Assembly: GCA_009841075.1 (NCBI GenBank) | Contig: VXMP01000081.1 | Span: 1 to 49,334 of the forward strand | Reading direction: 5' to 3' | Length of the DNA: 49,334 nt | From: Acidimicrobiia bacterium | GTDB lineage: Bacteria; Actinomycetota; Acidimicrobiia; Spongiisociales; Spongiisociaceae | Part shown: one piece after another, positions 9,098-49,334 of the stretch | Layout of the letters: every line of letters begins with the position of its first letter | Position numbering within the stretch: the first letter of the stretch is position 1 | Notes under the pieces: model-generated | The model's input: the letters and a program-made list of their open reading frames with translations, nothing else | Told to the model about the DNA's origin: nothing | Databases searched by the model: none | Translations under genes and position numbers: made by a program

Positions 9098-10728
9098 GCG
9101 TAAGGATCACCTTTCTGGGGGGGCTGGGGGAGGTAGGTCGCAACTGCGCGGCGGTTGAAATAGAAGGCCGGATCATGCTGATCGACTGCGGCCTTATGTT
9201 CCCCGAGGAGGATATGAGGGGGGTGGATCTGGTCCTACCGGATTGGCGGTGGTTGTCGGAGCGCAGAGAAGATATCCAATGTGTGGTACTAACCCACGGC
9301 CACGAGGATCACATCGGCGGGCTGGGTTATTTCCTTCCCGAGTTTCCCGTACCCGTCTATGGGACCGAGCTTTCGCTGGCGATAGCAGCCGGCCGGGTGG
9401 ACGAGTTCGGTATCGACCGGGACTTTCGACCAATTCCCGATGGCCGTTGGGTTCGGGAGGGGCCTTTCAAGTTTCAGCTGATACCGGTTTCGCATTCGGT
9501 CCCCCAAGGAAGCGGGATAGCCCTGGACACCTCGGAAGGGTTGATCCTCCACACCGGGGATTTCAAGCTGGATCCCACTCCGGTAGACGGCAGGCGAACC
9601 GATCTCCCCGCCTTCGGTCGTTTCGGCAATAGGGGGGTGCGGCTGCTGATGTCGGATTCCACCAACGCCGAACGGGCCGGTTACATACCCTCCGAGAAAT
9701 CCCTGGAGCCCTCCATCTCTACCATCGTCCAGCGGGCACCGGGCCGGATCGTATGCACCTGTTTTTCCAGCCATCTGCATCGGGTTCAGCAGCTGTCGGA
9801 TGCCGGGCTGGCGGCGGGTCGCTATCTCAGCTTCATCGGTAGGTCGATGGAGCGCAACGTGACCATCGGCACCGATCTGGGGGTTCTTCACCTGCCGTCG
9901 GATCGGATAGTGGGGATTGAGGAGTCGATGCATCTTCCTCCCGAACAGGTGATGATCATCACTACCGGATCACAGGGAGAGCCGTTTGCGGCCCTGTCCC
10001 TGATGGCGATGGGGCGGCACCGTAGCGTCACCTTGGACGAAACCGATACCGTGCTGATCTCCGCCACTCCGGTACCAGGCAACGAGACCGCCGTTTCCAG
10101 GGTGATTTCGGACCTGACCCGCCGAGGATCGACGGTTTTCCATAGCGGAAATGCCCGCGTCCATGTTTCGGGCCACGCCTCGGCAGAAGAGCTTAAAACC
10201 TTCATCAACCTGGTACAACCCTCGACGCTGGTCCCCATTCATGGTGAATATCGCCACCTTCAGGCCCACGCCGATCTGGCCGCAGAAATGAACGTTCCCG
10301 AGGTTCTGGTGCTGGAAAACGGGGACGCCGTGGAGCTGGACGGCTCCACCACCCGGGTGGAAAGGGCCGCCGTCAAGGCCCGATACATTTATGTGGACGG
10401 TACGGGAGTGGGTGATATCAGACCCGGCCTTCTCCGAGAGCGGGCTCGATTGAGCGATGACGGGGTGGTGGTGGTGTCCCTTCTATTGACCGAAGATGGC
10501 AACGAGCTGTTGGCCACCCCCCGGGTGGCGAGCTATGGGCTGACGGACCACCCGGATGAGGTTATGGAAGAGGTGGCCGAAGAGATCGAAGCGGAAGCCT
10601 ATGACAATCCGTCCGGCTTCTTCCGGGATGTCGACCAGGCGGTTCGCCACATCGTCCGCCGAGTGATCAGAAACCGGGTGCGACGCAAGCCGGTGGTTAT
10701 GCCGGTTATAACCCATTTCGACGGGTAA
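9094..10728 (+). CDS. rnj: Ribonuclease J
   Basis: The ORF is open from 8998, but the family begins at the GTG at 9094 (VSVRITFLGGLGEVGRN), which overlaps the dapA stop. This gives 544 residues, close to the usual 550-560. The metallo-beta-lactamase motif HGHEDH is at residues 68-73, followed by the beta-CASP domain and a C-terminal region ending in conserved basic residues. RNase J has 5'-to-3' exonuclease and endonuclease activity and matures rRNA and mRNA. The dapA-rnj-ftsK order is typical of actinobacteria. Confidence in function is high. Confidence 0.95.
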   Translation: MSVRITFLGGLGEVGRNCAAVEIEGRIMLIDCGLMFPEEDMRGVDLVLPDWRWLSERREDIQCVVLTHGHEDHIGGLGYFLPEFPVPVYGTELSLAIAAGRVDEFGIDRDFRPIPDGRWVREGPFKFQLIPVSHSVPQGSGIALDTSEGLILHTGDFKLDPTPVDGRRTDLPAFGRFGNRGVRLLMSDSTNAERAGYIPSEKSLEPSISTIVQRAPGRIVCTCFSSHLHRVQQLSDAGLAAGRYLSFIGRSMERNVTIGTDLGVLHLPSDRIVGIEESMHLPPEQVMIITTGSQGEPFAALSLMAMGRHRSVTLDETDTVLISATPVPGNETAVSRVISDLTRRGSTVFHSGNARVHVSGHASAEELKTFINLVQPSTLVPIHGEYRHLQAHADLAAEMNVPEVLVLENGDAVELDGSTTRVERAAVKARYIYVDGTGVGDIRPGLLRERARLSDDGVVVVSLLLTEDGNELLATPRVASYGLTDHPDEVMEEVAEEIEAEAYDNPSGFFRDVDQAVRHIVRRVIRNRVRRKPVVMPVITHFDG

Positions 10729-10731
10729 GCG

Positions 10732-10760
10732 TTGGCCAGAGGGCTTGGTTGGTGTAACCT
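10732..10760 (+). promoter_or_regulatory. Candidate ftsK promoter
   Basis: TTGGCC at 10732-10737 and TAACCT at 10755-10760 are separated by 17 bases, matching the sigma-70-type layout. Transcription would start about 5 bases before the ATG at 10772, so the GAGGGG at 10761-10766 may or may not be in the transcript. Only three of six bases match the TTGACA consensus, so this is tentative. Confidence 0.35.
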
Positions 10761-10771
10761 GAGGGGCTTAC

Positions 10772-13210
10772 ATGGCCAAAACGACATCCACCCGTGCGGG
10801 CACGGGGCGGAAGCGGGTGTCAAAGGTACATGAGAATCAACGGTTGAAGGGACGTCCGGCACCCCCTAAAAAGGGGAAGCCCGGTGCCAAAAAGCCGTCC
10901 ACCTCCTCGGCTCGAACTGCGGCCAAGCCCACCCCTGCGCCAAAGAAGGCGAAGTCCGGACCGACCAAAGCCCAGCCCCGCCGGTCGATCTTTGGAATAT
11001 TGAAGCAGCGGCTCGGATCCGGATTGGGGAAGCAGGTTCATCACCTGATCGGGTTGGGTATGGTTCTGTTGGGGGTTATAGCGGGCTTGGCATTGGTCAA
11101 TGCAGCCGGACCGATCGGCCAGGGTTTAGTCGACGGCATCCGCTGGCTGGTGGGCTGGTGGGTATTCATCCTTCCGGCGATCCTGTTTGGGGTGGGTTTA
11201 ACCCTGCTGCTCGGTGAAGAATCCTACGCCTACAGCCGTACCCTGTTCGGAGTGGGGGCACAGCTGTTCGGATTGGTGGGGTTGTTCCATTTGATGACGG
11301 GTAACCCGGCCTTCGCGGATGGGGCCGATCGGTTCCAGGAATCCGGCGGGTCGCTGGGTGCCTTGGTCGCCTACCCCATGGAAAGAATGCTCGGATTTTG
11401 GGGGGCGGTGGTGATGTTGGTGGTGATAGTTTCGGGGGGCGCAATAGTCACCGTGCGGGCTTCCATACGGGAGGTTCTGGTGGCGTCGGGCCGGATGGTC
11501 GCGAACGCGCTAGGAAAGATCCGAGCCGCTTTACGGTCGTCCGGGAACGGTTTTGCCCGTCTGTTAAGCCGCCGCAAAGAACGCCAAAAGATGCGGTCCG
11601 AAACGGCGGTGGTTTCGGTGCCCCGCCGCCCGCCGCCTACGCCGTCGCCCCAGGATTCCACCTACCTGACCGAGCAGCCGGCCGCGTCTCCCGAAGATAA
11701 CCCTCCGGCGGAAAAAAAGGTCAAACCGACCCAAAAGAAAAAGAAGAAGCCGGCTTCGTCGAGCTCCTCGAATGGTGACGGATATCAACTGCCGCCCTTG
11801 AGCCTGCTGGATAACCCTCAGTCCTCCCCCCGAAGCGGTCGCATGATCCAGGAAACCGCCCGCCAGCTGGAAGCCACCCTTCGGGATCATGAAGTCAACG
11901 CCCGTCTCACCAACGTGGTGTCGGGGCCGACCGTCACCCGCTACGAGATCGAGCTGGCGGCGGGAGTGAAGGTGGCGCGGGTGACCGGACTTTCCGGAGA
12001 TATCGCCTATGCGTTGGCCACCCCTGACGTTCGTCTGTTGGCACCGATCCCTGGGCGTTCGGCGATCGGGGTGGAGGTACCCAACAAAAGCCGTAGCCTG
12101 GTCACCCTGGGCCAGGTGCTGGCCTCGGAGCAGTCGGACAACGATGTCCACCCGTTGACGATCGGACTGGGGGAGGACATTTCCGGTCGTCCGGCCATGA
12201 TCAACCTGGCCGAGCTACCCCATCTTCTGATCGCCGGGGCAACCGGTGCCGGAAAATCCTCCTGCATCAACTCCATCGTCACCTCCATCCTGATGCGGGC
12301 CACCCCCAAAGATGTGCGGTTGATAATGGTCGACCCCAAGCGGGTGGAACTCGGCCAGTACAACGGGGTTCCTCATCTGTTCACCAGGGTGATAACCAAG
12401 CCGAAGAAGGCGTTGGAGGCGTTGCAGTGGGCGGTGGGGGAGATGGACCGGCGTTACGAACTGCTGGCCGAAAGCGGGGTACGCGACATAACCGGATACC
12501 ACGAAAAATATGATGTAGGCTTGCTGGAGCCCGCCCGGTTCGATCGGTTCCCGTACCTGGTCATAGTCATAGATGAGCTGAACGATCTGATGATGGTGGC
12601 CGGACGGGACGTGGAATCGGCCATAGTTCGCATCGCCCAGATGGCCCGGGCGGTTGGGATCCACCTGGTGATCGCCACCCAGCGTCCGTCGGTCAACGTG
12701 ATCACCGGAGTTATAAAAGCCAACATCCCCAGCCGGTTTGCCTTCTCGGTTGCCTCCCAGGCCGACTCCAGGGTGATAATTGACTCGGTAGGTGCCGAAA
12801 AACTGATCGGAATGGGGGACATGCTGGTCATCACCGCCCGCGAGCCCCGGCCCCAGCGGGTACAGGGGGCATGGGTCAGCGAAGGGGAGGTGGCGGCGGT
12901 GGTGCGTTGGGTGAAAGAACAGAAGTCGGCCGACTACAAAAAGTTCACCGAAGAGGTCCGGCAAGCCCAAATCCAAATGGTGTCCGAAGAGGACGAAGGC
13001 GAGGATCCCGACCTGATCCGCCGGGCCGGCGAGCTGGTAATCCGATCACAGCTCGGATCCACCTCGATGTTGCAGAGAAAGCTCCGCATTGGTTTTGCCC
13101 GGGCCGGGCGGATCATGGATATTCTCGAAAACAAGGGCATCGTGGGGCCGTCTGAAGGTTCCAAGGCCCGAGAGGTTCTGGTTGGTGCGGATGAGAGGGT
13201 TGACGCCTGA
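10772..13210 (+). CDS. ftsK: DNA translocase FtsK/SpoIIIE
   Basis: An 812-residue protein. Residues 1-90 are very basic and rich in Lys, Pro and Ala. Four hydrophobic membrane segments lie between about 92 and 225, and a Pro/Lys-rich linker runs to about 345. The motor domain has Walker A GATGAGKSS (489-497) and Walker B VIVIDELNDLMMV (597-609; Asn604 replaces the more usual Ala). The C-terminal gamma winged-helix domain is present (RAGELVIRS through GIVGPSEGSKAREVLV) and reads KOPS-like polarity sequences in other bacteria. It pumps DNA at the septum during chromosome segregation. The length is typical of actinobacterial FtsK. Confidence 0.95.
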   Translation: MAKTTSTRAGTGRKRVSKVHENQRLKGRPAPPKKGKPGAKKPSTSSARTAAKPTPAPKKAKSGPTKAQPRRSIFGILKQRLGSGLGKQVHHLIGLGMVLLGVIAGLALVNAAGPIGQGLVDGIRWLVGWWVFILPAILFGVGLTLLLGEESYAYSRTLFGVGAQLFGLVGLFHLMTGNPAFADGADRFQESGGSLGALVAYPMERMLGFWGAVVMLVVIVSGGAIVTVRASIREVLVASGRMVANALGKIRAALRSSGNGFARLLSRRKERQKMRSETAVVSVPRRPPPTPSPQDSTYLTEQPAASPEDNPPAEKKVKPTQKKKKKPASSSSSNGDGYQLPPLSLLDNPQSSPRSGRMIQETARQLEATLRDHEVNARLTNVVSGPTVTRYEIELAAGVKVARVTGLSGDIAYALATPDVRLLAPIPGRSAIGVEVPNKSRSLVTLGQVLASEQSDNDVHPLTIGLGEDISGRPAMINLAELPHLLIAGATGAGKSSCINSIVTSILMRATPKDVRLIMVDPKRVELGQYNGVPHLFTRVITKPKKALEALQWAVGEMDRRYELLAESGVRDITGYHEKYDVGLLEPARFDRFPYLVIVIDELNDLMMVAGRDVESAIVRIAQMARAVGIHLVIATQRPSVNVITGVIKANIPSRFAFSVASQADSRVIIDSVGAEKLIGMGDMLVITAREPRPQRVQGAWVSEGEVAAVVRWVKEQKSADYKKFTEEVRQAQIQMVSEEDEGEDPDLIRRAGELVIRSQLGSTSMLQRKLRIGFARAGRIMDILENKGIVGPSEGSKAREVLVGADERVDA

Positions 13211-35802: not shown

Positions 35803-37251
35803 ATGCGCGAGAAGAAAAAGATCAATCGTCTACTTCGCCTGGGTGCGTTGCTGTCCGTCTTTGCCCTGGTAGCGGCGGCCTGCGGCGATGACGACACCAC
35901 CCCCGAAACCGTGGTGGTCACCTCGATCGTAACCGAGGTAGAAGAACGGGTAGTCACCGAAGAGGTGGTGGTCACTTCGATCGTGACCGAGGTAGAAGAA
36001 CGGGTAGTCACCGAAGAGGTAATCGTCGAGGTTCCGGTAGAGGTAGAGGTCATGCCCGAGCCCATGGGACCGACCGGCCCCGGCCTGTTGGATCTGGACG
36101 ATTCGGAGCTGGCCGGCATGTCCTGGGACGAAATAGTGGCCGCCGCCGCCGGCGGACGGGTCAACTGGTTCATGTGGGGCGGTAGCGCGGTGATCAACGC
36201 CTACGTCAACGACTGGGTATCCGACGAGGCCAAGTCCCGCTACAACATCGACCTCAACCAGGTTCGTATCACCGACACCGTCAACGCGGTGGACACGGTG
36301 ATCTCCGAGACCGAAGCCGGTGAGTTCTCCAGCGGTTCGATCGACCTGATCTGGATCAACGGAGAGAACTTCAAGACCATGAAGAACGCCGGCCTCTTGT
36401 TCTGCGGCTATTGGGACATCATGCCCAGCATGGCCAACGTCGACCAGATGGCTGCTACCAATGCCTTCGACTTCGGCACTGCGGTAGACGAATGCGAGGT
36501 TCCCTGGAACCAGGCCCAGTCGGCCGTGTTCTACAACAGCGCGCTCGTGCCCGAGCCTCCCGCCGACATGGATGCTCTGCTGGCCGCCGCCTGCGCGAAT
36601 CCAGGAACGTTCACCTATCCGGCACCCCCGGACTTCACCGGTAGCGTTTTCGTGCGTCACGTCTTCTACAACGAGGCGGACAAGATCCTCCCCGGCGGGC
36701 ATCAAGACATGATCGGAATCCCTTTCGATCAGGCACTTTATGATCAGGTAGCCACGGCGACCTGGCAAACCCTGAACGACCTGGAGCCCTGCCTGTGGCG
36801 TAGTGGTGAGACCTATCCGGTTGACCAGCCCGCCCTTGAGCAGCTTTACTCCAACTCCGAGGTAACCCATTTCCTGGCCTACGGACCGGCTTCGGCCGGG
36901 TCAAAGGTGGAAAGCGGGGTCTTCCCCGAGTCCACCCGCACCTACGGTCTGGACAGCGGCCAAATCGGTAACACCAACTTCGTAGCCATGCCCTACAACT
37001 CGCCCAACAAGGCGGCCACCCTGGTAGTGGCGGACCTTCTGCTGAGCATCGACGGGCAGCTACAGAAGGCCTACCCGGATGTTTGGGGACAGATCAACGT
37101 TCTCAACGCCGCCTCGCAGGTCCATTTCTCGGACGTGCCACGCCATCCTTCGGTGGTTGATCCGGCCGAGGTGACCTCCCTTGGCGAGCTCCTCGGTGAC
37201 TGGGTCCCCGCCATCGAGGAAGGCTGGAAGACCAACGTAGCCGAGCAATAG
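35803..37251 (+). CDS. YnjB-like ABC transporter substrate-binding lipoprotein
   Basis: The ATG at 35803 follows AAGGAGGAG and gives 482 residues. It has a lipoprotein signal peptide with a basic start, a hydrophobic core and the lipobox LVAAAC (Cys27). A Val/Glu/Thr-rich linker with an 18-residue tandem repeat (positions 35911-36018) then extends it from the membrane. The binding domain matches the COG4134 YnjB family, with VNWFMWGG near its start and SIDLIWINGENFKTMKNAG further on. Two permeases and an ATPase follow. The YnjBCD substrate is not established in any organism I can recall. Confidence 0.9.
   Translation: MREKKKINRLLRLGALLSVFALVAAACGDDDTTPETVVVTSIVTEVEERVVTEEVVVTSIVTEVEERVVTEEVIVEVPVEVEVMPEPMGPTGPGLLDLDDSELAGMSWDEIVAAAAGGRVNWFMWGGSAVINAYVNDWVSDEAKSRYNIDLNQVRITDTVNAVDTVISETEAGEFSSGSIDLIWINGENFKTMKNAGLLFCGYWDIMPSMANVDQMAATNAFDFGTAVDECEVPWNQAQSAVFYNSALVPEPPADMDALLAAACANPGTFTYPAPPDFTGSVFVRHVFYNEADKILPGGHQDMIGIPFDQALYDQVATATWQTLNDLEPCLWRSGETYPVDQPALEQLYSNSEVTHFLAYGPASAGSKVESGVFPESTRTYGLDSGQIGNTNFVAMPYNSPNKAATLVVADLLLSIDGQLQKAYPDVWGQINVLNAASQVHFSDVPRHPSVVDPAEVTSLGELLGDWVPAIEEGWKTNVAEQ
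35911..36018 (+). repeat. Two 54-bp tandem repeats in the SBP linker
   Basis: Positions 35911-35964 and 35965-36018 are nearly identical 54-mers with about two mismatches, each coding for the same 18 residues (VVVTSIVTEVEERVVTEE). A shorter third partial copy, VIVEVPVEVEV, follows. They form the spacer between the lipid anchor and the binding domain and could change in number by slippage in units of 18 residues. Confidence 0.85.
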
Positions 37252-42984: not shown

Positions 42985-43087
42985 GCCTAAGGGCAAACTA
43001 CATCCTCTGGGACCCATCATAGCCCTAATGACTAGGTTTGACCATGAATTACGAGAATTGCATTGCGGATCCAGGGATCAAATTTTC

Positions 43088-43190
43088 GCGCTCTTGGGAT
43101 TACCCCTGGTAGGCGGAGTCCGATGATGTGCAGGTCGGCCAAACATTCGGCGGCAAGGGCAGAGGTCTGGGTCACGCGCTGTGGTGGTAC
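43088..43190 (-). repeat. Sixth, isolated copy of the ISP C-terminal motif module (U6)
   Basis: Read on the minus strand this stretch codes for SALAAECLADLHIIG...GVIPRAR, clearly related to module U5 (AALAADCLADLHIID...RVIPRAL). At DNA level 43088-43172 is a direct repeat of 44268-44350: the first 18 bases are identical, then a few mismatches and two short gaps. The 5' part (about 43170-43190) is more diverged and abuts the DUF4268 gene start. It lies outside the main array, on the far side of that gene. Confidence 0.75.
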
Positions 43191-43204: not shown

Positions 43205-44179
43205 ATGGGTACCGAAGTGAGTAAAGAGTCTCTCTCGAAGATCAGGAAGGTTGCCTTGCGCAAGGTTTGGCCTCAGGAAGCCAGTGATTTCACACCGTGG
43301 CTGGAAGAGCACCTGGGCGAGCTGGGAGAAGCCCTCGGAATCGAACTTGAGGCATCAGAGCGTGAGTCTCGGGTTGGCAGCCGTTCCCTGGACATCATGG
43401 CCACCGACAGCAACGGCCGTCCGGTGATCATCGAGAACCAACTCGAGCGCAGCGACGATGACCACCTAGGCAGGCTCCTGATCTATGCCGCCGGTAAGGA
43501 CGCCGATTTCATCATCTGGATCGCCAGGGATTTTGAGGACGAACACTGGCAGGTGCTGCAGTGGCTCAATCAGCGGACCGGCACCGATACCCAGTTTTTC
43601 GGCGTTGCGATCGAGGTATGGAGGATCGACGACTCCAGGCCTGCTCCCTACTTTAAGGTGGTCGTGGCCCCGAACGACTGGCGAAAGCGAAACGTCTCAC
43701 GAAAACCGAGATACCGCGAATTCCGGCAACGACTGGAAGAAAAGCTGAAACTTGAGCCCGATCTTCCACTCCTACCGGGCAGCAACCATAACAAACCCTG
43801 GCTGGCCATTTACCACGTTGACGGACTCAACTACTCGATCGACTTTCGCGACCGGATCTATTTCTCGTTCCAACTTGACACCCGCGGTGCCCCGAGCTTG
43901 GAATGGTGCCGGTCCTCCTTCGACCGGATTAAGGAAGACCGAGACGGCATCGAAGATAAATTAGGCAAGCTGGAGTGGATCCGGGAGTGGCAGCGAAATC
44001 GGGGAAGCGCAATTGTCAGCCACCACACCGAGAGTTTTTCCGACCTCACGTACACATGGCCCGAAGTTCACCAATGGGCCATCAACAGATACCGCCTCTT
44101 CCGAGAAGTATTTGAGCCCTACCGAGAAGAGCTACTGTCCAGCCCCCTGTCCCGCGCCGCCCAAGAACAGGACGATTAG
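43205..44179 (+). CDS. DUF4268 protein with N-terminal PD-(D/E)xK nuclease-like domain
   Basis: A 324-residue protein. The N-terminal part reads SLDIMATDSNGRPVIIENQL, matching a restriction-endonuclease-like core D63...E77-x-Q79, followed by the helix ERSDDDHLGRLLIYAAG. The C-terminal half corresponds to DUF4268 (FDRIKEDRDGIEDKLG). Such proteins are frequent in defence islands and beside restriction systems, but their function is not established. It is transcribed against the restriction enzyme gene and is framed by direct copies of the module sequence. TACAGT at 43188-43193 could be its -10 box. A GTG at 43217 is an alternative start. Confidence 0.85.
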   Translation: MGTEVSKESLSKIRKVALRKVWPQEASDFTPWLEEHLGELGEALGIELEASERESRVGSRSLDIMATDSNGRPVIIENQLERSDDDHLGRLLIYAAGKDADFIIWIARDFEDEHWQVLQWLNQRTGTDTQFFGVAIEVWRIDDSRPAPYFKVVVAPNDWRKRNVSRKPRYREFRQRLEEKLKLEPDLPLLPGSNHNKPWLAIYHVDGLNYSIDFRDRIYFSFQLDTRGAPSLEWCRSSFDRIKEDRDGIEDKLGKLEWIREWQRNRGSAIVSHHTESFSDLTYTWPEVHQWAINRYRLFREVFEPYREELLSSPLSRAAQEQDD

Positions 44180-44250: not shown

Positions 44251-44376
44251 CTAAGACGGCCTGCGGAGCGCTCTTGGGATTACCCGGTTGGCGGGGTCGA
44301 TGATGTGAAGGTCGGCCAAGCAGTCGGCGGCAAGGGCGGCGGGTAGGGTTCGGTTGGAGGGGCTGGAAATCAGGAT
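44251..44376 (-). repeat. Module U5 of the ISP motif array
   Basis: The minus-strand frame reads KEAILISSPSNRT...AALAADCLADLHII...NRVIPRALRRPS and stops at 44251. It lacks a start codon and is out of frame with U4. Its first bases (GCGATCCTGATT) contain the TGA that ends the U4 frame. It is the copy most like U6 on the other side of the DUF4268 gene. Confidence 0.75.
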
Positions 44377-44489
44377 CGCCTCTTTAGTGTGCGGGTCTGC
44401 TGTCCCGGGCCCATGGTGTGCAGGTCGGGGATCGGTCTGGTCGCCAGTATCCCGAAGACCGCCATGTTGGAGGGGCCGGTCAGGAGGAT
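44377..44489 (-). repeat. Module U4 of the ISP motif array
   Basis: The minus-strand frame reads QTAILLTGPSNMAVFGILAT...PIPDLHTMGPGQQTR and ends at the TGA inside the U5 core. SNM, F, LAT and PDL match U2 most closely. The start-to-start distance from U2 is 267 bp, so U2 and U4 share a frame. Confidence 0.75.
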
Positions 44490-44605
44490 GGCCGTCTGGG
44501 AATGATTCGAGAGGGTTGGTTGGTTCCGGCTGCGCAAAGGTCCCCCAGGAGGTTGGTGGCGAGGGCGGCGAAGATGGTCCGGTTGCTGATTGAGGTGATG
44601 ACGAT
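44490..44605 (-). repeat. Module U3 of the ISP motif array
   Basis: The minus-strand frame reads MEGIVITSISNRTIFAALAT...LLGDLCAAGTNQPSRIIPR and ends at the TGA inside the U4 core. This copy has a potential ATG start (44614) just before it. It lies 270 bp from U1, so U1 and U3 share a frame. SNRT and AALA match U5. Confidence 0.75.
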
Positions 44606-44756
44606 CCCTTCCATTCCTCCGGGGGGGTGTCGGTTAATCGGGATAGCCCCTCGGGATGGCTCGGGTCTGACGGGATCCGGCGATGGTGGCCAGGTCCGGC
44701 AGGGTGTTGGTCGCCAGGGCCTGGAAGGTCATGTTGGAGGTTCCGCTGATCAGGAT
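44606..44756 (-). repeat. Module U2 of the ISP motif array
   Basis: The minus-strand frame reads QAAILISGTSNMTFQALAT...TLPDLATIAGSRQTRAIPR and stops at a TAA (44634-44636). Its core GATCCTGATC contains the TGA that ends the 1387-residue enzyme. It is 151 bp long because of an extra C-rich tail after the stop. Confidence 0.75.
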
Positions 44757-47700
44757 CGCTGCCTGGGTACGGCTCGGGCACCGCCTTGATTGGGTCCGAG
44801 GCTGTTGAGGTCGGGAATCCATCCGATGGCGAGTACGGTGCAGATGTCCCGGTTGTTCTGGCTGGGGAGGAGGATCGATGGGGGGGGGTGTGTAAGGGTT
44901 GGATCAGGTTTCGGGAACAAGGCCGAGATGGTCTTGACCGACGACAGGACGCGATGGTCCTCATAGAGCCAGAGCTTGGTGAAGGGCCGATATAGGACTT
45001 CGCGGATGCGTGCCTCATCGAATTGGATAGGCTCTCTCGTGCCGAGAGAGCTTTTGAGTCGTCCGGTCCATTTGATCTTATCCAGCTGGTAGTTCTCGGT
45101 TACTTCCTCAAAAGAGAAACCTTCGTCTAGATATTCGATAGCCTCGTTGTAAGCGTTTATCAGCCGTTTTGCCCGTATGGCCAGTTCAACACGGCTGAAA
45201 GAGTAGACGTATGTGTCACACGCGCTTGTGAGACCTAGTGCGCTGGTGTGAGTAGCTCGGTTGGCTTTCTTATCTTTAGAGGTATCGCATACCGGCAGCA
45301 GATTTTCGAAAGTTCCGTCGGTGAGGTTGACCCAATCGTGGCGGTCGTTGATCGGAACGGTTTTGAATTCGTCGCCTGTCACGTCTCCCAGCCGATCCAG
45401 CCAGGCGAACTTTTTTTCCAGAGTGGAGTACTCGGGTACCTCGGCATAGTGGAGCAAGCCGGGGTGGTGGGGTTCATGTTCGGGACTGCGTACCGCCACG
45501 GTGATCTGCACTCCGTTGCGGGTTCCTTGCCCGAATACGTTATCTCCTTCCCTCTTACGCTCTTTGCCGCTTTTGTAGGCGTCGCCGCGCAGGTTTATCA
45601 CATAGAGGTGGTCGAACTCTTCTCTTAGGCAGGCCCGCATCCCTACCAGCGCAGTGCCGGTGGCCAACGAATTGGGATGGATGAACGCCACCACCCCTTG
45701 TCGGTTGTCGGGATCGGTCGGGTCGCCCAGCCGGTCGGTGGCCCAACGGATGGCTTGGACGTAAAGGTTCCCCCAGGCTTTACCTCCCCCACCTTTCCTG
45801 GTGACCTGTTTGTGGTGTTCGCCGTAGGTCTCGCGAACCCGTTCTTTGATATGGGTGTTCTTGAGGTTGGGATTGTCATCGCCTGCGTCCTTCTGCCCAG
45901 CCCGCCAAGGCGGGTTACCGAGAATCACCCGAATAGTTCGTGCGTCCTGCTCCAGAGCCCGGACCGGGTTGTCGCCCAGTTCAAACTGTCCTGCCTGGGA
46001 GCCGGTAAAGGTGTCCCGCAGCACGATTCCCTCAAAGGGACGGTAGCCGTTATCAAACACCCCACGTGAGGAGGCGGACTGTTCGATCTTGAGGGCGGCT
46101 ATGTAGTAGGCCAGTAACACCATTTCGCCGGCATGCATCTCCGATAGATATTTGTGGGCAACGTGGTCGTCGGATATCAAAGGTTGCCCATCCCGACCGG
46201 AGATGGCCAGTAGCCGAGACAGGAAGGTGCCCGTGCCGGTGAACGGATCAAGTATCTCCACACCGGGATCTCCCAACGACTTCCCGAAGTGCTTCCGAAC
46301 CACTGCCTCGGCGCTGCGGAGCATGAAGTCCACCAACGGAACCGGGGTGTAGACGATTCCCAGTCGCTGTACCACCTCGGGTATAGCCGACTTGAAAAAC
46401 CCTTCGTAAACATCCTGGAGGATCTGAAGTTTGGCGGCGTCCGGGTCGGCGTCTTCGGACACATCTTCAAACACGGTGGCGATCCGGTCGTAGGAACGCT
46501 TGAGGGGTTGGATGAGCTGATCGAAGTTCACCCCCGCCTGATTCTGCATCTCGTTAAGAACGGTGTTCAGATGTATGGAAATTGGGTTTTCCTCCCGGAA
46601 AGAATGGTCGGAGAAGAATGCATCAAACACCGGGATGGTCACGGCGTGCTGTGCGATCATCTCAATGGCATCCCGTCGCTCAAAGGCGGGAATCACGGTT
46701 TTGCGCATCCCCTCGGTGAACCGGTCGAGAGTGGCCTTACCCTCTCCCTCACGGGTCTTGCGGTCCACCTCTTGGAACACCTTCCTGTAGACCCCGGCCG
46801 CGTTACGCCCCCAGGACGGCCAGTAGTGACGATCTCCCACCTGGTCCACCATCACAGAAGCTATCTCTGGGAGAAGACCGGGGAGGCTTTCTTGGCCAGT
46901 ATTCGGGATGGTGGTGGTGGTACGGTCGATCAACCGGATGATGTTCGGGGCCAAGCTGGGAGAGTTGACCATGGCGTCGAACCGCTCGTCGTGAGCCCGG
47001 AGGGCGCGGCAAACTTTCCAGACTTGTTGAAAAGCGGAGTCTTTCAGGAACTCCTCTGACCGAAGTGTCTGGCCGTCGGGCACTAGCACAGGTATAACTA
47101 TGTAGCCTTTGTCCTTCCCCTCGGCCTGGCGCATGACCCTGCCCACCGCTTGGACAATGTCTACTTCTGACTGCCGTGGGGCCAGGAACAGCACCGCATC
47201 CAGAGCCGGGATGTCCACTCCCTCAGACAGACACCGGGCGTTGGTCAATACCCGGGTGCTTCCATCCGGCTGGTCCTCTCCTCGCAGCCACTGCACCTTT
47301 TCAGAGCGTTCGTAGGCGTTTTGTTTTCCGTCTATGTGCACTACATCCAGGTCGGTTACCTCAAGCCCCCGATACTCGCTGGATCGTTCCTGCTGGTAGT
47401 TGTCGCACACGGCCCGCCAATGTTGTTCTATCTTCTTAGAAGTGGCGATTTTGTTCGTGAACGCGATAGCTCGACGGCAGCTATAGAAAGGATTGAGTGC
47501 TCCGGCAGGGCGGTCCCGTTCCACTCCCAATGTGTTGGGATCGGCCAAGGCGTCCCAGCATCCCACCATCTGAACCCAGTCTTCTGCATTTAGCACTTGG
47601 GTACTGGTTATATTTCCCCTGTTGTCCTCATACTTCTTCCAGTATCTGTCATATCCTTGGATGTGGTGGTTTTCGTCGTAGGCGATCACCACCACTTCAT

Positions 47701-48913
47701 AGTCGGAGAGCAGCCCGGCGTTGATGGCGTCACGAAAGCTCTGCTGGTAGAGGATCGGCCCATAGAGGCTTTCGTCGTCCATTGAATAGACCTCACCTCC
47801 AGCCCGCTTCTTCCATCCCGAGGCGTATAGGCGCTGAGTAGCAGTCATAAACAGCCGACGATGGGCATCGAGACGGTCTCGGTCATGTACCAACTGGAAC
47901 AGGCCTTTGTTACCCGATGAGTCTTCGATGCCGGTGGTGCGGTGGGCTTCATCGCAGATCACCAAGTCGAAGATGGGTGCTCCCAGATCTTGGGCCTCGC
48001 ATACCTTCCGAAGGGACTGATAGGTGGAAAAAACCACCGTCATGGCTTCGAAGGCTTCCCGTTTCAGTTTGGAGGCAATGGCTTCAGGGTCGGTGGTCAC
48101 CGGCATGGCCAACTCGGATAGATTTGCGTCCTCTGAGTCACGGGCTGCCTTGGAGTCCGCACATACCGCCAGGTAGCGGTGCTGAATATCCGGGTCCTTC
48201 TGGTAAGCCCAGGTGCGCATGGTCTGGCTCATCAGGGCGATTGATGGCACCAAATACAGTACCCGCCCGCCTAGCCCCACGTTGCGTTCTGCTGCCCACA
48301 ATGCCACTTCTGACTTACCCGACCCGCAGGGCATCAGCACCCGACCCAGGTCACCTCCCTCCGACCCGAACAGACCGGTCTGGATGGCTTCCAGGGCTTC
48401 TTCCTGATGCGGGCGGGGAACGTGACGATCTGCGGCCCACCGCAGAGTAGAATCGGGCTGCTCTATCAGCTGCCTCCAGTCTCCTACTGGCCAGGTATCA
48501 AGGTCGCCGCCGGTGATGATCTCGGCTGAGGCAGCATCCAGTTTCTTCCTTGCATTGGCCGAGTAGTTGCCGGTGGCCACAAAGATTCGGGCTTTCCATT
48601 TCTCGTCCACCGTGTAGGACAGGAACTTGTCCACTTCGCGGATATTTACCGATCCGGAAGCGTAGAACTTGCACTGGATAGCACAGAGCCCACCGCCGTA
48701 ATCCTCCGTTTGTTCACCTACCAGATCAATACCCAGGTCCACACCCCCGGCCTCCGGCCAATCCGACCAGAGCCACAGCTTGGTGAAGCGTTCCTTGTAT
48801 TGAGGGTTTTCAAGCAGGGCGTTTCTAACCAGTTTTTCGAACGCTCTTCCGCGCCGATATTTGCCGGAAATATCGGCGCGGAGACGATCTAGTGCCTCAG
48901 CTAAATGGGGCAT
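44750..48913 (-). CDS. Type ISP-like restriction-modification enzyme (nuclease-helicase-methylase), C-terminally short
   Basis: A 1387-residue single-chain enzyme. N-terminal Mrr-like PD-(D/E)xK domain: GVDLGID (Asp63) and IQCK (Gln80, Lys82). Superfamily-2 helicase: Walker A GSGKSE (197-202), DEAH (321-324), MTAT, and motif VI QAVGRVMRQ (588-596). N6-adenine methylase: YTPVPLVDFM, SAM motif DPFTGTGTF (889-897) and NPPW (1000-1003). A TRD-like region with VLYRPFTKLWLYEDHRVLSS lies near 1310. This order matches LlaGI/LlaBIII-type translocating enzymes, but those are about 1,570-1,600 residues long and end in a further domain that is missing here. The gene stops inside module U1/U2. Its ATG lies 1 base after the stop of the upstream gene, so translation is coupled. 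Confidence 0.9.
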   Translation of the reverse strand: MPHLAEALDRLRADISGKYRRGRAFEKLVRNALLENPQYKERFTKLWLWSDWPEAGGVDLGIDLVGEQTEDYGGGLCAIQCKFYASGSVNIREVDKFLSYTVDEKWKARIFVATGNYSANARKKLDAASAEIITGGDLDTWPVGDWRQLIEQPDSTLRWAADRHVPRPHQEEALEAIQTGLFGSEGGDLGRVLMPCGSGKSEVALWAAERNVGLGGRVLYLVPSIALMSQTMRTWAYQKDPDIQHRYLAVCADSKAARDSEDANLSELAMPVTTDPEAIASKLKREAFEAMTVVFSTYQSLRKVCEAQDLGAPIFDLVICDEAHRTTGIEDSSGNKGLFQLVHDRDRLDAHRRLFMTATQRLYASGWKKRAGGEVYSMDDESLYGPILYQQSFRDAINAGLLSDYEVVVIAYDENHHIQGYDRYWKKYEDNRGNITSTQVLNAEDWVQMVGCWDALADPNTLGVERDRPAGALNPFYSCRRAIAFTNKIATSKKIEQHWRAVCDNYQQERSSEYRGLEVTDLDVVHIDGKQNAYERSEKVQWLRGEDQPDGSTRVLTNARCLSEGVDIPALDAVLFLAPRQSEVDIVQAVGRVMRQAEGKDKGYIVIPVLVPDGQTLRSEEFLKDSAFQQVWKVCRALRAHDERFDAMVNSPSLAPNIIRLIDRTTTTIPNTGQESLPGLLPEIASVMVDQVGDRHYWPSWGRNAAGVYRKVFQEVDRKTREGEGKATLDRFTEGMRKTVIPAFERRDAIEMIAQHAVTIPVFDAFFSDHSFREENPISIHLNTVLNEMQNQAGVNFDQLIQPLKRSYDRIATVFEDVSEDADPDAAKLQILQDVYEGFFKSAIPEVVQRLGIVYTPVPLVDFMLRSAEAVVRKHFGKSLGDPGVEILDPFTGTGTFLSRLLAISGRDGQPLISDDHVAHKYLSEMHAGEMVLLAYYIAALKIEQSASSRGVFDNGYRPFEGIVLRDTFTGSQAGQFELGDNPVRALEQDARTIRVILGNPPWRAGQKDAGDDNPNLKNTHIKERVRETYGEHHKQVTRKGGGGKAWGNLYVQAIRWATDRLGDPTDPDNRQGVVAFIHPNSLATGTALVGMRACLREEFDHLYVINLRGDAYKSGKERKREGDNVFGQGTRNGVQITVAVRSPEHEPHHPGLLHYAEVPEYSTLEKKFAWLDRLGDVTGDEFKTVPINDRHDWVNLTDGTFENLLPVCDTSKDKKANRATHTSALGLTSACDTYVYSFSRVELAIRAKRLINAYNEAIEYLDEGFSFEEVTENYQLDKIKWTGRLKSSLGTREPIQFDEARIREVLYRPFTKLWLYEDHRVLSSVKTISALFPKPDPTLTHPPPSILLPSQNNRDICTVLAIGWIPDLNSLGPNQGGARAVPRQRS
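44757..44875 (-). repeat. Module U1, the expressed copy at the 3' end of the ISP-like gene
   Basis: This is the last part of the 1387-residue protein: ILLPSQNNRDICTVLAIGWI...PDLNSLGPNQ...ARAVPRQRS, then stop. It is the in-frame representative of the motif repeated in U2-U6. The distances to the next cores are 119, 151, 116 and 113 bp. Confidence 0.75.
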
Positions 48914-48914
48914 T

Positions 48915-49334
48915 TCAACCTGCCTCGATGTCGGTCAGCGAGGGGGGTAGGGACTTGATGATTTCGGCCGACCGGACCGAAACGTGCACCAGCCTCCGCA
49001 GGTGACGGATCAGGTTGAAGGGACGGTCCTCCCACACGTGCCAGCTGTTGGGGTCGTCCACGATTCCTGAGGCCTTGTCTTCTTTATGGCGGAGCGAGTC
49101 GATCGCCCAGTGAAGCGGGCTCCGTCCTGATACCTGATATTGGTGGGCTTTCGCAGGTATTTCTTCGATCCGGCAACGGTCGTTGACCCAGAGAACGGTT
49201 TGATCGCTCTGCTTGTTATCTTCCCCCCGACCCCAATGCATCTTCCCGATGCGGAACAGATGTGGAGTTTTTGCGGCAGCCCTATCCCCGGCCTCGTCTA
49301 AGCCGAAGCGTAGATCAGAGCTCTCCGCCCCACC
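48915..49334 (-). CDS. C-terminal domain of a type ISP-like enzyme, partial at window edge
   Basis: The frame is open from the window edge to a TGA at 48915, giving 139 visible codons. It contains DLRFGLDEAGDR, PHLFRIGKMHWG, YQVSGRSPLHWAID, DKASGIVDDPNSW and a terminal VSVRSAEIIKSLPP. These are the landmarks of the extreme C-terminus of single-chain helicase-methylase restriction enzymes, the very part missing from the 1387-residue protein encoded 1 base downstream. An internal ATG (49241) is preceded by conserved residues, so the gene continues beyond the window. It may be a second complete enzyme or a detached C-terminal subunit. Confidence 0.82.
   Translation of the reverse strand, partial: GGAESSDLRFGLDEAGDRAAAKTPHLFRIGKMHWGRGEDNKQSDQTVLWVNDRCRIEEIPAKAHQYQVSGRSPLHWAIDSLRHKEDKASGIVDDPNSWHVWEDRPFNLIRHLRRLVHVSVRSAEIIKSLPPSLTDIEAG

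Follow-up and report, generated by a model that had tools for sequence, protein, structure and literature searches.

Why would the gene of a restriction enzyme be followed by a row of out-of-frame copies of its own last codons? The question is raised by contig VXMP01000081.1 of an Acidimicrobiia bacterium (assembly GCA_009841075.1), whose 49,334 nucleotides (nt), the whole stretch analysed, are referred to here as the window. It carries the gene of a type ISP restriction-modification (RM) enzyme (44753..48913, − strand), at the 3′ end of which lie five homologous modules of about 40 codons each, all direct copies on the − strand. We propose that this enzyme is phase variable and that slippage of simple-sequence tracts during replication probably switches its DNA specificity. 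The steps of this proposal that concern tracts, reading frames, modules and a divided target recognition domain (TRD) are established at the level of the sequence.

The enzyme comprises, in order, an Mrr nuclease, a superfamily 2 (SF2) helicase, a coupler, a gamma N6-methyltransferase (MTase) and the first half of a TRD (Pfam Mrr_cat_2, ResIII, ISP_coupler and Type_ISP_C, the last at profile positions 5-150/342). Its best solved relative is LlaBIII (E=5e-199, residues 19-1371), and the MTase motif NPPW is present in the translation. Nuclease, helicase, coupler, gamma N6-MTase and C-terminal TRD are therefore joined in one chain, as in other type ISP enzymes. A complete TRD, consisting of core and guide, was not found in this polypeptide. 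Since Type_ISP_C positions 165-341/342 are encoded by separate neighbouring genes, the enzyme is a split-TRD variant of the type.

The modules are U1 (44750..44878, QNNRD type), U2 (44634..44759, SNMTF type), U3 (44480..44608, NR...CAAGTNQ type), U4 (44370..44492, SNMA type) and U5 (44251..44379, SNR...DP type), each given with its stop codon. They lie in frames 0, 2, 0, 2 and 1, none has its own start codon, and at a ...CGATCCTGATC... core most adjacent modules share 6-10 nt. Every one of U1-U5 was recovered when the genome was searched with a module profile (E = 1e-14 to 1e-19). These matches and frames bear out the coordinates, missing starts and overlapping cores reported in an earlier account of this DNA, the sequence-only reading. 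That account listed the five modules and overlooked two homopolymer tracts (C9 and C7) and a sixth, partial copy; the alternation of SNR and SNM types that it described is present but incidental, as module types vary in identity and order between genomes. Re-initiation of translation at tiny open reading frames (ORFs) was ruled out, the modules being without start codons.

The two tracts act as frame selectors. Tract 1, a run of nine cytosines on the coding strand (44880..44888, − strand), lies just before U1, and tract 2, a run of seven (44621..44627, − strand), lies just before U3. After tract 1, frame 0 leads to U1 and its stop, frame 2 leads to U2 and its stop, and frame 1 is free of stops across tract 2 and through U5. 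Beyond tract 2, the module reached is U3 in frame 0, U4 in frame 2 and U5 in frame 1. In silico, C9 in tract 1 placed U1 in frame as the C-terminal end of a 1387-amino acid (aa) enzyme, C10 gave a 1426-aa enzyme ending in U2, and C8 or C11 passed the frame on to tract 2. With C11 in tract 1, the products were 1478 aa (U3) with C8 in tract 2, 1514 aa (U4) with C6 and 1554 aa (U5) with C7. Tract length alone yields five predicted enzymes of 1387-1554 aa, each with exactly one of the five modules in frame, and the locus thus has the hallmark of simple-sequence-repeat (SSR) phase variation, a tract within an ORF whose length sets the reading frame.

The modules correspond to the part of the TRD that reads bases. 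A search with the module profile hit LlaGI at INISGQGDKADFATLISEYLSDMHVIGGQARNLPRF (E=2e-5) and, weakly, the corresponding site of LlaBIII; aligned with these enzymes, each module is a copy of the beta-hairpin/Loop VI segment with which the type ISP TRD reads bases. In LlaGI the +3 base pair is read by H1368, after which come G1372 and Q1373, and in LlaBIII by N1360 (PMC4872093). The module residue that aligns with H1368 and N1360 is the one following 'DL'. This residue is N, A, C, H and H in the window modules and N, C, K, H, S, A and H in those of another genome, G352 (the last read from the sequence PDLHLM; G and L numbers are our handles for genomes and loci). The modules also contain the beta-hairpin that has been termed evolutionarily constrained (PMC4872093).

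The other half of the TRD is supplied by a guide gene (48915..49334, − strand), the 5′ end of which is cut by the contig end and the stop codon of which lies 1 nt before the ATG of the enzyme. The part present matches Type_ISP_C at 261-340/342, and complete homologues match at 165-341/342. Among the relatives described below, the guide gene lies upstream on the same strand in G011, L140 and L149, divergently upstream in G065, G093 and G013, and downstream in G352, G343, G380, L139, L142, L143, L145 and L154; it is broken between two frames in L139 and L140. A further arrangement is found in G085, G093:C82 and G001, where the guide is reached through one frame of a GA/TC tract and the other two frames lead to further modules. 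The guide reads no bases in LlaGI (PMC4872093) and therefore fits the role of a constant part common to all tails.

The layout of tracts followed by modules is present in about 20 loci of Acidimicrobiia. Arrays were found through relatives of the enzyme and module-profile searches at the level of order and class (G065, G093, G013, G011, G352, G387, G343, G380 and G274), and a scan of named genomes added L139, L140, L142, L143, L145, L149 and L154. The recurrence of the modules in related genomes, a check proposed in the sequence-only reading, was thereby confirmed. Most array-bearing records are assigned to Acidimicrobiia, Acidimicrobiales or Acidimicrobiaceae, and one bearer, Candidatus Hopanoidivorans cymbastelae, falls within Acidimicrobiales. 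Judging by bin names, several of the bins presumably derive from marine sponges. A phylum-wide module search of 396 genomes returned single-module matches only outside the window's own genome.

At the same place in these genes, the repeat unit differs between genomes and may be a mono-, di-, tetra- or pentanucleotide: G/C runs of 7-19, (GA)n, (TC)n, (AC)n, (CCGA)9 and (GGAGC)12 were found. Outcomes were classed for each frame as a module with its stop, an early stop after the module preceding the tract, passage to the next tract, or the guide. At all fully readable tracts (31/31), the three frames led to three different outcomes. G011 and G352 have three tracts each, through which seven alternative modules are reachable in G352, and six modules and one early stop in G011. 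Tracts precede the modules in every complete array except an eroded one in the window's own genome (G000:C37). This array belongs to a second type ISP gene (G000:C37:5500-9900; L040, L032), in which the modules occupy all three frames but the only tract is an eroded GA-like one, and its switch may be frozen.

Among 80 named type ISP loci, a tract was present in 14/14 of those with at least two modules and in 2/66 of the others (Fisher 8e-14). The two exceptions are L141, which is cut by a contig end, and L156, in which the tract lies in the guide part. In ordinary type ISP loci, a single module in frame 0 is followed by the remaining TRD in frame 0, with no tract. For the 13 three-module tracts, the chance of the three-outcomes rule is (2/9)^13 = 3e-9, uncorrected for descent; products of P values are only indicative, because the loci are related by descent.

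In the out-of-frame paths required for switching, no stop codon was observed, against an expectation of 1.9-8.0 from synonymous recoding; for the window, P = 0.0005. This result comes from the fuller simulation, based on enzyme codon usage and including the pass frames; an earlier one, which drew its codon usage from the modules and omitted the pass frames, gave weaker per-locus values of 0.06-0.49. A first-order random-sequence null for homopolymers was uninformative (4 runs of at least 7 observed vs 40 expected), because real sequence avoids long G/C runs. Whole-genome counts of G9 in the window's genome (G000) were discarded, being apparently inflated by poly-G runs at contig ends.

Module orthologues were compared across genera by codon position and by the ratio of nonsynonymous to synonymous differences (pN/pS), as the sequence-only reading had suggested. 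Differences fall mostly in third positions (323:223:511), and the pooled pN/pS is 0.43, values that indicate that the modules are under purifying selection across genera. The near-neutral pattern by which relics were to be recognized was not found, and because of this selection the modules are not decaying relics. The suggestion in that reading that they serve as a functional store of alternative target-recognition ends for the C-terminus is borne out.

Relatives differ in which module is in frame. SNMIF in G011, QLPF in G093 and SNMA in G065 are each the in-frame tail there and silent in another genome. Module C is in frame in G085, and its relative G093:C82 reads the guide instead. The loci in G387 and L154 are ~95% identical over much of the gene, yet their first modules differ, and their GA tracts measure 15 nt vs 40 nt. 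Modules do seem to have been exchanged by recombination over evolution, with the frame set by slippage, as far as these comparisons indicate.

Extra tracts of G9-G11 lie in the helicase or MTase coding parts in G065, G093, G011, G352, G387 and L154 (the loci with such internal tracts being L004:4690, L005:1493, L136, L158, L159 and L154). In G065 the gene stays in frame across such tracts; in G093, G011 and G352 they lie at breaks in the assembled frame. In G387 and L154 the internal tract is G9 and G11, respectively, each out of frame in opposite directions; G10 would therefore be the on state. These internal tracts point to on/off switching layered on the choice of tail.

Taken as a mechanism, slippage during replication in tract 1 or tract 2 would shift the frame, and translation of the enzyme would run on into another module. 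The guide protein, bound in trans, would complete the TRD. As one TRD is common to both activities, the specificities of methylation and cleavage would change together, and a clonal population would become a mixture of enzyme specificities directed against phages. We infer slippage in living cells, guide binding in trans and a different recognition sequence for each module. It is also likely, in our judgement, that the locus works as a reading-frame multiplexer, in which nested tracts address 3-7 overlapping, frame-staggered modules to give a discrete and reversible set of specificities, the constant half of the TRD acts in trans, and the layout lasts across the class while repeat units and modules are replaced.

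The explanation favoured in the sequence-only reading was recombination between the ATCCTGA cores, with the modules serving as silent cassettes that replace the expressed tail in the manner of hsdS shuffling or a shufflon. Such exchange would account for the similarity of the inter-module cores, for the varying order of modules among genomes and for the whole first module by which G387 and L154 differ despite ~95% identity over much of the gene. However, all modules are direct copies on the enzyme's strand, and recombination leaves both the avoidance of stops in the required frames and the replacement of repeat units unexplained. It is also not needed for switching, because a change in tract length, together with the stop-free intervening frame, already reaches every frame-shifted module; we regard it as very unlikely. 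About as improbable is that a single DNA sequence yields several tails in a fixed mixture, through transcriptional slippage or programmed ribosomal frameshifting at its tracts. Homopolymers can slip in this way and the frames reached would equal those of DNA slippage, but the GA, TC, AC, CCGA and GGAGC tracts found at the same place are not usual slippery sites, close relatives differ in tract length, and the internal tracts throw the gene out of frame.

Another explanation retains switching by the tracts and assigns the tails a role in stability, on/off state or partner binding, such as docking of the guide, rather than in DNA specificity. The modules do adjoin the split with the guide, and the internal on/off tracts show that these genes also get switched off. 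Against this, the modules vary at the position responsible for reading the +3 base in LlaGI/LlaBIII, and in the Helicobacter pylori JHP1272 precedent specificity is what changes; this explanation is unlikely, though it deserves more weight than the other alternatives. Least credible is that the modules are degenerating tandem duplicates without function. An internal stop in the G013 SNMTF module and the partial state of the sixth copy (43086-43187) would suit decay, but purifying selection across genera, conservation of module types over the whole class and the absence of stops from the required frames speak strongly against it.

Several observations nevertheless count against a switch of specificity by slippage. 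In G065, G093, G011, L140 and the full-TRD group, one module lies ahead of tract 1, so that some products carry two modules, and in the window the choice of U2, U4 or U5 puts a long out-of-frame linker ahead of the module. The SNMTF module of G013 (L035) is otherwise well conserved and contains an in-frame internal TAG, reflecting either a decayed module or a sequencing error. Slippage at tract 2 may be slow, as this tract is only C7. Tract-length polymorphism was seen at the level of ~95% identical relatives, and homopolymer lengths in short-read metagenome-assembled genomes (MAGs) can be wrong. An AlphaFold model of the MTase-TRD segment of the window enzyme (8 sequences) was not used because its confidence was too low (mean predicted local distance difference test (pLDDT) score of 52.7, module below 40).

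Phase variation of restriction enzymes by slippage is usually on/off or two-state, and multi-way change of specificity is known from recombination. The closest precedent for slippage in DNA switching among enzyme tails is found in the type IIG enzymes JHP1272 / HP1353-HP1354 of H. pylori. Of their two homopolymer tracts, one is an on/off switch; the late one determines whether a C-terminal recognition element is present, and experiments have shown that the methylated motif changes with it (PMC3936762). The present locus shares a late tract that changes a C-terminal recognition element, the modules mapping to the Loop VI region of LlaGI/LlaBIII. Whereas JHP1272 is an MmeI-like enzyme with two states and one added domain, the system described here is built on a type ISP enzyme with a split TRD, in which nested tracts with three frames each lead to 3-7 paralogous modules. 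LlaGI and LlaBIII have the same domain order and recognition loops as the window enzyme (PMC4872093), but their TRD is fixed and lies within a single chain; that of the window enzyme is divided between two genes and has a variable Loop VI piece.

In Helicobacter canadensis and Neisseria gonorrhoeae, C-terminal phase variation is known in which a repeat tract near the 3′ end switches the C-terminus among three frames (PMC2823697, PMC5320596). Those alternative ends are mostly short and unrelated, whereas here each frame ends in a homologous, selected DNA-reading module. Repeat-tract switching of DNA methyltransferases is described for a Campylobacter jejuni type IIG enzyme (PMC4889913) and for type III mod phasevarions; these accounts concern stochastic switching of methyltransferase expression and not a multi-way choice of recognition module. 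Type I hsdS inversion systems provide several specificities of one RM enzyme in a clonal population (PMC4948785, PMC7394358) and, as outlined there, act by recombination of hsdS genes rather than by choice of frame. A 2025 review lists single methyltransferases switched by SSRs as well as TRDs switched by recombination (PMC11868660). No frame-multiplexed case was found by a word search of that review or in literature searches, which cover subscription papers thinly, and novelty is provisional.

The arrangement would store 5-7 specificities compactly in about 600-900 bp with no need of a recombinase. If true, it would explain how clonal populations of uncultured Acidimicrobiia could vary their methylation and phage defence. 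For the study of how Loop VI determines type ISP specificity, the modules form a natural collection. They also carry a warning, as gene callers will mark most such coding regions as non-coding or frameshifted.

Outside the Acidimicrobiia, two loci with tracts were observed. In L188, from the cultured alphaproteobacterium Gluconacetobacter johannae LMG 21312, the layout is similar: the module of a type ISP gene (~10060-11300) is followed by an (ACAGA)n tract that spans at least 115 nt, and the frames of this tract lead to a second module, the remaining TRD or an early stop. In L156, from a Verrucomicrobiae MAG, the two parts of the guide half of the TRD lie in different frames on either side of a G23 tract, an apparent on/off switch.

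The sixth copy in the window, partial, U5-like and probably dead, was detected with the module profile 1.2 kb past U5 (43086..43187, − strand). Between it and U5 lies a DUF4268 gene (43205-44179, + strand) that matches the PADLOC candidate defence family PDC-S11 (E=7e-81). An exact 18-bp repeat is shared by the partial copy (43088-43105) and U5 (44268-44285). The DUF4268 gene looks as if it had been inserted into the module array. A scan of IMG/VR with the enzyme gave no match. Elsewhere in the window, an ORF contains a 54-bp tandem repeat (35911-36020; 2 copies, 96%).
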